This document shows positions 20,818-23,742 of a stretch of 64,000 bases of DNA, in pieces. The notes under the pieces are model-generated. The model saw nothing but the letters and a program-made list of their open reading frames with translations. It made no database searches and had not been told where the DNA came from. Source of the stretch: an uncultured Schlesneria sp. (GTDB lineage Bacteria > Planctomycetota > Planctomycetia > Planctomycetales > Planctomycetaceae); NCBI GenBank assembly GCA_903840265.1, contig CAIMFH010000021.1:62001-126000 (forward strand). Direction: 5' to 3'. Every line of letters begins with the position of its first letter. Position 1 is the stretch's first letter. The position numbers and the translations under genes are program-made.

Positions 20818-22422
20818 TCAAGTCGACGTGACCTTCGTTTGATATTCAGGTGATTCCATCCACTCATCCAAGCTCAATTCGATAAACCGCTGGATCGGAA
20901 TCGTCGTCACGCCCATTATCGCAGTGACCATGATAAAGCCGGGCCAGATCGGAAAGTTGATCCAGATCACGGCGCAAAAGACGACCAGAGCCAGGAATCC
21001 CAGCATCTGACTGGGGCCACTCCACCAGTGCTTGGCAGTGACATAGTAAATCGCAGACACCTGGCATAGTAGCACTCCCGCCAAGGCGGCAATGACGCCC
21101 GTCATGAAAATGACCGTCGGATCGCGAAGGGCAGCAAAAGCAATGGCGATACCGATCGGCAGTGCGGCCAGTTGATGTTCCCAGCAGATCGCTCGAGCCT
21201 TGGCCCAGAGGACAGTGGATCGATCAATCGGCAATAGCATCAGGTCGTGCCAGGTCTTCTGTCGAAATTCGGCCGAGAGCAACGAATCGAATCGAACCGC
21301 GAACAGGATCGGACAGGCACACTCGGCCATAATCCCAATTGCCAGGGGAAAAGTGGTGTTCCATTGCAGCAGCGCCGAAAAGACGACCACATTCGCCAGC
21401 AGGAAGTAGACCACGTTCCAGCTTCGCTGCGATCGCAACCCGATCAACACGTAGGCGTCCTTCCAATAAAGCGGGGCCGCTCCACATCGGGGTCGTCCGG
21501 TGACGACAGAGCCCTCACTCACTTCTGACGACTCCGCGTGATCGGTACTCGTCAGCGAGCGGAAGCGATTGATCATGATGACTGCGGCGTAGCGAAAGAT
21601 GCAGCACGCTGCCAGGAAATGCATCCAGTAAGAGGGTGACAAGGGATCAAATAATTCGGGAGCCGAACTGATCCGCAGGATCACCATGACGGGTGCCGAC
21701 TGCCACGGCAAATCGGTTAGGCTTCTCCACCACGACGTATGCGGGGCGGACCAGTCTCCCGTCGCAAGCCAGGTCACGACGAGGATCGCTAGTGCCGTCA
21801 ACCAGAACAACAGGTGATACAGCAGCATCAGGATAAACGTTGTCATCGCGGCCGTGGTCGACGTGTTTGCGCTTTCAGTCGAAATCACTCCGGCCAGTGC
21901 GGCCATGCTGGCTGTCAGCAGAGTCAACATCAGTAGTCCCCAACCATACGCAGCAAGTTGAGCCATGTTCGCTCCGCCCAATGTCATGGTAAAATAGACG
22001 AGCGGAGTCAGCACCAGCACCGAGCAGGCGATCGTGACCCAACGAGCCAACGATTTGCAGCAGAGCAACGCCAGCGGACCGATTCCCGTCAATCGGACAA
22101 GTTCGCGTAGTTCGCTGGAAACCTCCCAGCAGATGGCTTGCGCGGCATGAGTCGCTCCACCACCAAGAATCAGCAGCACGGCGATCGCGAATAAAACTCG
22201 CAGGCCATCGCGACCCTGATTTGCATACCAATGATCGGACCAGAACAGGTAGCAAAACAGACTGATTAACAAAAGTGGGGCGACGAGGAAGATTTGAGGC
22301 AGGATAAAAAAGGCTTCGCGTCGCAGGCACCATTCCCAAAGTACCGCGATCCGCTGCCGGTAAGTCAGTGCGTAACCTGAGCCGGAATTGCTCGGAGCGT
22401 CTGCAATGGAGAGAGTGCTCAT
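20818..22422 (-). CDS. Multi-spanning membrane protein, ABC-2 permease-like
   Basis: A 534-residue integral membrane protein with about 11-12 hydrophobic segments. The N-terminus is cytosolic (RQRIAVLWEWCLRREAFF), followed by a helix LVAPLLLISLFCYLF. The segment SSELRELVRLTGIGPLALLCCKSLARW resembles the coupling region of ABC-2 type exporters, in which a motif such as ELELLLLTPI follows a helix. No ATPase subunit is adjacent, which would be expected for an ABC permease. The ATG at 22422 is preferred over the upstream in-frame start. A role in export or gliding-type machinery is possible; I am not certain of the family. Confidence 0.65.
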   Translation of the reverse strand: MSTLSIADAPSNSGSGYALTYRQRIAVLWEWCLRREAFFILPQIFLVAPLLLISLFCYLFWSDHWYANQGRDGLRVLFAIAVLLILGGGATHAAQAICWEVSSELRELVRLTGIGPLALLCCKSLARWVTIACSVLVLTPLVYFTMTLGGANMAQLAAYGWGLLMLTLLTASMAALAGVISTESANTSTTAAMTTFILMLLYHLLFWLTALAILVVTWLATGDWSAPHTSWWRSLTDLPWQSAPVMVILRISSAPELFDPLSPSYWMHFLAACCIFRYAAVIMINRFRSLTSTDHAESSEVSEGSVVTGRPRCGAAPLYWKDAYVLIGLRSQRSWNVVYFLLANVVVFSALLQWNTTFPLAIGIMAECACPILFAVRFDSLLSAEFRQKTWHDLMLLPIDRSTVLWAKARAICWEHQLAALPIGIAIAFAALRDPTVIFMTGVIAALAGVLLCQVSAIYYVTAKHWWSGPSQMLGFLALVVFCAVIWINFPIWPGFIMVTAIMGVTTIPIQRFIELSLDEWMESPEYQTKVTST

Positions 22423-22710
22423 GCGAATCAACTCAAAGGGCGGCCGATAGATGTGTCTGTCGTTTCAATCGTATCGCCCAGGTCTCTGTAACGACATTCG
22501 TCGCGTGATATCAAATCCGAGACGAGGCGATGTCGCGAGAAATTCTTCGCCGCATTTTGCTGATCCCCCAAAATTCTGTTAGGAGGACAATTGATTCGGA
22601 TGTAAAATAGAGGTGACGGACGACTGAGGAGACGAGAATGGCTGCGGTAAAAGCTCAGTAGAGTCTGTCAACCTCTGTTCGTGTTTGCTTTGATTTGGCA
22701 GCCATAACTC

Positions 22711-22877
22711 GTAGGGAGGGCGTTGTCGGCGTCAGCGGATTTCGCGATACGTTTTGAAGGTTTCGCCCGGGTTTATCCCGAAGGTCTTCACCTCAAATCC
22801 TGTTAACGGGGAATCACGATCCAAAACTCGCCGTAAAGCCCGATGAAAGGCCACCCTCTGGTGGCCTTTCTTTTTTT
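22711..22877 (+). ncRNA. Candidate structured RNA with intrinsic terminator
   Basis: Paired segments can be traced by eye. GGGC (22718-22721) pairs with GCCC (22838-22841), CGGCG (22727-22731) with CGCCG (22829-22833), and GTTTTG (22751-22756) with CAAAAC (22822-22827). Inside are small hairpins such as CGGG-TTTAT-CCCG. This makes a rod with internal bubbles, about 125 nt long, followed at once by a textbook terminator. It could be a free-standing small RNA (a 6S-like rod is one option) or a cis-acting leader of osmC. I could not match it to a known Rfam family from memory. Confidence 0.5.
22846..22877 (+). terminator. Intrinsic terminator
   Basis: AAAGGCCAC (22846-22854) and GTGGCCTTT (22861-22869) form a perfect 9-bp stem with a 6-base loop, followed by C and seven T. 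It ends whatever is transcribed upstream on the plus strand; the only candidate is the structured element at 22711. Confidence 0.88.
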
Positions 22878-22968
22878 GCACAAGGCGCGGACGTGGAACG
22901 ATAGGCAGGGTTCACGTAGATGCGGTATCCTGCGGAAAACAATCCGATCTCTCTGAGTGAAGCCCGCC

Positions 22969-23469
22969 ATGAACGCTACTGAACTCCGCGCCAAACAAGC
23001 TCCCTTCAAGAATAAGTATCGCGACGATCCTGCATCGGCACTGGTCACGTTGCGAGCCGTCGGGCGGCTGGATATCGACAGCGTCACCTGCCAGCTCGAT
23101 CTGCATCCAAATCCCTCCTGTGCCGGATTGCATCCGCTCACAGGTGGCGACGGCAGCGGAGCCTGCTCGGCCGAGATGCTGCTGCATGCGCTCGTTGGCT
23201 GTGCGGGAGTCACACTGGGTGCGGTTGCTACCGCAATGGAAATCGCGATTCGTACCGGTTCGATCACAGCCGAAGGAGACGTTGATTTTCGCGGCACGCT
23301 GGGGATCAGTCGCGACGTACCAATCGGCTTTCAAGAGATTCGTTTGAAGTTCGATCTGGATTCAGACGCGCCACCAGAAAAACTGGCCAAGCTGATCGAG
23401 CTGACCGAGCGATACTGCGTCGTGTATCAGACGCTGAAGAATTCGCCTCGATTGGTGCAGGCCGACTAG
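22969..23469 (+). CDS. OsmC-family protein
   Basis: A 166-residue protein with the OsmC/Ohr fold pattern: GACSAEMLLHALVGCAGVTL carries the first conserved Cys in the central helix, and LIELTERYCVVYQTLK carries the second. These two cysteines form the peroxidatic/resolving pair of OsmC enzymes, which reduce organic hydroperoxides. The ATG at 22969 is chosen; an in-frame GTG lies four codons upstream. It lies 91 bp downstream of a strong terminator and a structured element, so its expression could depend on antitermination. It is monocistronic. Confidence 0.85.
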   Translation: MNATELRAKQAPFKNKYRDDPASALVTLRAVGRLDIDSVTCQLDLHPNPSCAGLHPLTGGDGSGACSAEMLLHALVGCAGVTLGAVATAMEIAIRTGSITAEGDVDFRGTLGISRDVPIGFQEIRLKFDLDSDAPPEKLAKLIELTERYCVVYQTLKNSPRLVQAD

Positions 23470-23487
23470 GCTTGCTGTAGTGCTTAT

Positions 23488-23600
23488 TCGTGGGATGGGC
23501 TTCCAACCCGTCGCTTTGGCTTCGGCCTTTGAGCTGAGTTTTTGTCTTCGTGGCACATCGTGCGCTGCGAAGAAAGACGGGTTGGAACCCCGCCCCACGA
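23488..23600. repeat. Inverted pair of 25-bp repeats after osmC
   Basis: Arms at 23488-23512 and 23576-23600 match as inverted repeats at 22 of 25 bases (core TTCCAACCCGTC). Related words occur at 5820-5838 and near 45170. This fits a family of intergenic palindromes common in this genome. The pair lies between osmC and the next plus-strand gene. Confidence 0.7.
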
Positions 23601-23742
23601 AAGAAAGCCACGTCACTTCGCAAGAGATTGACATTGAACACGGCGTTCGCTGGAATGAATGCGGAGCCAGACATCGACTGTGATGGCCCGTTCTACTCTT
23701 CTCGATCATCTGACGTTCTCGTCCATTTAGGGGGCCACCTTG

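Follow-up and report, generated by a model that had tools for sequence, protein, structure and literature searches.

What the segment 22711-22877 encodes, and whether it serves the gene next to it, is the question raised by this locus of the window, by which we mean the whole 64,000-nt stretch of Schlesneria DNA analysed here. On one side of the segment lies a permease-like gene in divergent orientation (20818-22431, minus strand), for which Pfam gave no match; on the other lies osmC (22969-23469, plus strand, PF02566), which is a neighbour only and is outside the RNA unit; all RNA features given below are on the plus strand. The initial annotation had placed a structured RNA with a terminator at 22711-22877, coordinates that proved right, and had proposed two readings for it, a free small RNA with the rod shape of 6S RNA or a terminator-type leader controlling osmC. 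It had also seen no protein frame in the segment, in agreement with the relatives described below, where no long frame is conserved across it and 1-nt indels occur in the arms. Directly 3′ of osmC the window also carries a REP-like inverted repeat (23484-23606; CGTGGGATGGGCTTCCAACCCGTC ... GACGGGTTGGAACCCCGCCCCACG), which has 8 other near full-length copies in the genome, at 77-83% identity, together with many partial ones.

The core (22717-22842) and the terminator (22845-22877) were predicted to adopt a rod-like fold. The whole 170 nt gave −64.6 kcal/mol (z = −3.1), and only 1 of 200 shuffled sequences was as good. This value is carried by the terminator, which alone reached z = −5.7, while the core without it gave z = −1.7 and was equalled by 12 of 200 shuffles. 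On one sequence alone the core is hardly above chance; it is comparison that makes it real. The annotated structure was thus borne out in part, by the comparative evidence, which is strong, and not by the folding energy of the single core, which is weak. The terminator and its run of seven T (22871-22877) are real, and the stem, described as 9 bp, is better than described, with 11 bp (22845-22855/22860-22870) closed by the loop CTCT.

Relatives were collected with BLASTN, using the window segment as query, and then with a covariance model (R1), whose matches were used to build a second model (R2). BLASTN matched 6 other genomes of the genus, one of them twice; the distribution is patchy, with no convincing match in 8 of the 15 genomes of the genus. 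R1 identified 38 copies with E-values of 2e-6 or below, which are rough owing to a short calibration; they are spread over 29 of the 170 genomes searched in the order, where contigs of metagenome-assembled genomes (MAGs) are fragmented. The carriers belong to 13 of the 58 genera of the order, all in one family, and R2 returned the same genomes. A wider set of 392 genomes, sampled from the whole phylum, gave no convincing match beyond this family; we discounted a single weak one (G456, E = 0.0014), which seems to fall within protein-coding DNA. When named genomes were scanned with a pattern, the BLASTN matches could be assigned to Schlesneria and to an unclassified Planctomycetota MAG, and a virus scan with a pattern of the core gave no match. 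Carrier genomes hold one to six scattered copies, with one in the genome of the window and six, including degenerate ones, in G007. Rfam 15 at gathering score matched neither the window copy nor any of 19 member loci, and scans of three members at weak thresholds produced scattered low scores only, those of the window mostly at the terminator. No description of this RNA was found in the open-access literature, subscription papers being outside the scope of the search. The locus belongs to an RNA family outside Rfam that is confined, within the searched genomes, to one planctomycete family.

Alignment of the core revealed invariant blocks interspersed with compensatory changes. Changes on both sides were seen in 27 of 39 pairs of the alignment fitted to the model, in which 92% of the cells were paired, a result that none of 500 shuffles equalled. 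As a check against circularity, 23 divergent copies were aligned blind to structure with MAFFT and folded with RNAalifold. The same fold was recovered, with 20 of 28 pairs compensatory and again none of 500 shuffles matching it; when the partners were slid along this alignment, the paired cells fell from 94% to 24-46%. The covariance check that the initial annotation had called for therefore found both conservation and covariation in the relatives.

The consensus comprises four helices, P1 to P4, whose pairs could be compared with the three long-range stems annotated earlier. The first of these, GGGC 22718-22721 with GCCC 22838-22841, forms the outer section of P1, a helix that is conserved and covaries family-wide (consensus GGCCTCGT/ACGAGGCC): all four pairs are kept, with changed letters, in 7 of the 8 aligned copies of the genus, and three of the four in the remaining copy. 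The second, CGGCG 22727-22731 with CGCCG 22829-22833, corresponds to the inner P1 helix and forms in the window copy and in a 98%-identical relative, but other members use another register, so that this version is lineage-specific. The third, GTTTTG 22751-22756 with CAAAAC 22822-22827, did not hold: it is absent from the minimum-energy fold of 22717-22842 and only partly kept in relatives, where the conserved pairing is that of UUUG 22753-22756 with CAAA 22794-22797. This pairing closes P3, an arm of variable length and sequence (22753-22797) with compensatory changes. The 5′ strand of P2, with the conserved UUCG of the adjoining junction, lies at 22737-22744 and pairs with 22817-22822 (consensus GCGAA/TTCGC). 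P4 (22798-22812) is an invariant hairpin, UCCUG..AyGGGGA, whose sequence is better conserved than any other in the family; conservation is strongest in P4 and the P2-P3 junction. A tandem second RNA copy in G007 (contig C39, L047 1242-1337) lacks P4 but retains both a long closing helix and a terminator of its own. We also considered a hairpin, CCTCG-TGAC-CGAGG, that would compete with P1 as a switch; it is present in the Schlesneria copies and lost in several other genera, and was rejected.

Does this RNA control osmC? The window and G012 each have a co-directional osmC ~90 nt downstream of the terminator, and in some members a short frame precedes the structure, as is the case in attenuators; both features would suit an attenuator or riboswitch. 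The wider neighbourhoods argue otherwise. Among the osmC orthologs of nine genomes of the genus, those of the seven others lie elsewhere than the RNA; two genomes (G009 and G010) have an osmC gene but lack the RNA, and in G008, where a single contig carries both, 1.6 Mb separates them. At the orthologous permease-osmC junction of G011 the gap is ~86 nt, compared with 537 in the window, which leaves no room for the RNA, and the two RNA copies of that genome are on other contigs, away from this gene pair. Across the family, no constant co-directional gene follows the RNA: the downstream genes, called mechanically except where Pfam confirmed them, include those for a P450, a LonB-like and an RlmL-like protein, ribonucleotide reductase, DUF1501 and others, and are often convergent. 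With a random gene next to it, frequently in the wrong orientation, the family is not a cis regulator, and the leader proposed for osmC is extremely unlikely. A terminator beside a gene can mislead when it is read as belonging to that gene's leader, and it is the comparison of neighbourhoods that settles the question.

The same shifting positions, different in each genome, the insertion-like presence between permease and osmC and the six copies of G007, degenerate ones included, would also be compatible with the mere spread of a mobile or selfish RNA element. Beyond promoter and terminator, however, the copies had no shared flanks that we could see, Pfam scans of 19 flanking genes revealed no transposase, reverse transcriptase or TnpB, and the pairing has been maintained through compensatory changes, all of which make such an element highly improbable. 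The other reading of the initial annotation, a free small RNA, is the one upheld by the conserved and covarying core, its own terminator and the unrelated neighbourhoods. The terminator stands at most 75 nt from the core in 26 of 35 family copies, with stems that are unlike in sequence between genera. Taken together, the core structure and terminator, the independence from neighbouring genes and the presence of paralogs are shown by comparison.

The relatives also share an organization upstream of the core. Their order is a promoter-like motif, GGAgGGA, one or two hairpins, a Shine-Dalgarno-like (SD-like) site, the core and the terminator. The promoter-like motif, CCAACA-N15/16-CGTAgtAA, was found upstream of 18 of 25 dereplicated copies (e.g. 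L048, L055 and L067). It resembles an ECF sigma promoter. The SD-like site, AAAGGAGG or a shorter form, lies ~40 nt 5′ of the core and is shared by most members. The window copy is different: it lacks the promoter motif, AAAGGAGG and GGA enrichment, and a sigma-70 scan of its intergenic region found no promoter. Its likely 5′ domain (22609-22676), predicted to contain a long stem (22609-22621/22663-22676), is not alignable with that of other members. Its 5′ half, like that of G012, is of another kind, with an SD-like GAGGAG (22626-22631), an ATG and seven codons at 22626-22661, a putative frame (ATGGCTGCGGTAAAAGCTCAGTAG, 22638-22661) that G012 shares. Because its 5′ domain has diverged and the motifs are missing, the window copy may work differently from the others or be undergoing decay. 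With this reservation, 22717-22877 of the window is probably a free-standing sRNA gene, with a likely start around 22610.

An SD-like site followed by a start codon could indicate a small mRNA, with a short peptide as the product and the core as its structured 3′ end. In 12 of 27 copies an ATG indeed occurs 3-8 nt 3′ of the SD, where chance predicts 3.9 (P = 0.0005, an optimistic value because the copies are related and the test was devised after the sequences were seen). Where the full AAAGGAGG is present, however, an ATG at this distance is mostly missing, and the peptides, of 3-25 codons, are unconserved, differing in sequence, length and frame. A conserved small protein was ruled out on the same differences in frames and peptides between members. 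Since conservation resides in RNA pairs and not in codons, a peptide-coding role is very improbable. The 5′ SD-like site points to an interaction with the ribosome or a regulator that recognizes SD sequences.

CsrA would be one such regulator, and the GGA motifs of the 5′ domain might titrate it, as in the CsrA-sequestering RNAs CsrB and RsmZ. We approached this possibility in three ways, with mixed results. The 5′ domains contain 159 GGA against 113 ± 7 expected, but without the two conserved motifs the excess becomes marginal (68 versus 59, P = 0.05, again optimistic for a post hoc test on related copies), and the window copy is not enriched. GGA occurred in hairpin loops in 22 of 25 copies, which is not above the 20 obtained from shuffles; the placement of A(N)GGA in such loops that is expected of a CsrA sponge was therefore not found, whereas CsrA itself is present in the hosts. 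CsrA (PF02599) was detected in 170 of 170 genomes of the order, and RNA carriers have more copies (11.6 versus 9.0, P = 3e-4, corrected for genome size and not for phylogeny). The gene is greatly multiplied in these bacteria, with 3-17 matches per genome, ~5-17 in most near-complete genomes and 12 in that of the window; our literature search found no paper on CsrA expansion in planctomycetes. A sponge would leave the core, the best conserved part, unexplained, and we regard CsrA sequestration as improbable.

What, then, does the RNA do? That the family is a class of free-standing structured sRNAs is, on comparative grounds, very probable. As the best overall explanation we favour a free-standing sRNA gene whose core acts in trans and docks a partner, which we consider likely. 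Its transcript would start with a 5′ domain bearing an SD-like or start-codon-like site, continue through the rod-like core and end at the intrinsic terminator. Because conservation peaks in P4 and the P2-P3 junction, we infer that the function most likely lies in the core together with a partner, most likely a protein, for which the hairpin and the junction would form the docking site. P1 would hold this scaffold together, and the SD-like arm may contact the 30S ribosome or an SD-binding regulator such as CsrA. We propose more tentatively, as a possibility short of even, a new class of planctomycete regulatory RNAs with an ECF-like promoter and up to six copies per genome, in which P4 binds a dedicated protein or the SD-like arm acts on the ribosome. 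The specific mechanism, a trans-acting RNA with a protein-docking core, is rather unlikely when taken in that exact form. In the literature searched, structured regulatory RNAs of planctomycetes are almost absent, although these bacteria have large genomes. Strong covariation, an invariant hairpin and a shared promoter-like motif make this family a concrete target for partner hunting.

Three known systems offer a comparison. 6S RNA is likewise free-standing and rod-like, with a terminator at its end, and the 6S-like rod proposed initially was correct as to rough shape. The window RNA, however, has a branched core: its consensus contains a branch point with two apical helices, P3 and P4, the latter being the invariant hairpin, in place of a single rod with a central bubble. 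RF00013 did not match 22711-22880 at gathering score or at E values up to 10, and a separate 6S gene was located elsewhere in the genome (G000:C128, L031 1501-1699; 48.2 bits, cut-off 46.4), so that a literal identity with 6S (SsrS) was rejected. Attenuators and terminator-type riboswitch leaders resemble the family in the succession of an SD-like site, a structured region and a terminator; they differ from it in their constant downstream gene, the place of which is often taken here by a convergent one. CsrB/CsrC and RsmY/RsmZ share with it a GGA-rich 5′ domain, a free-standing gene with a terminator, duplicated copies and a CsrA-rich host. Here, in contrast, no Rfam family matches, GGA is not concentrated in hairpin loops, and it is the core, not the GGA-rich part, that is mainly conserved.
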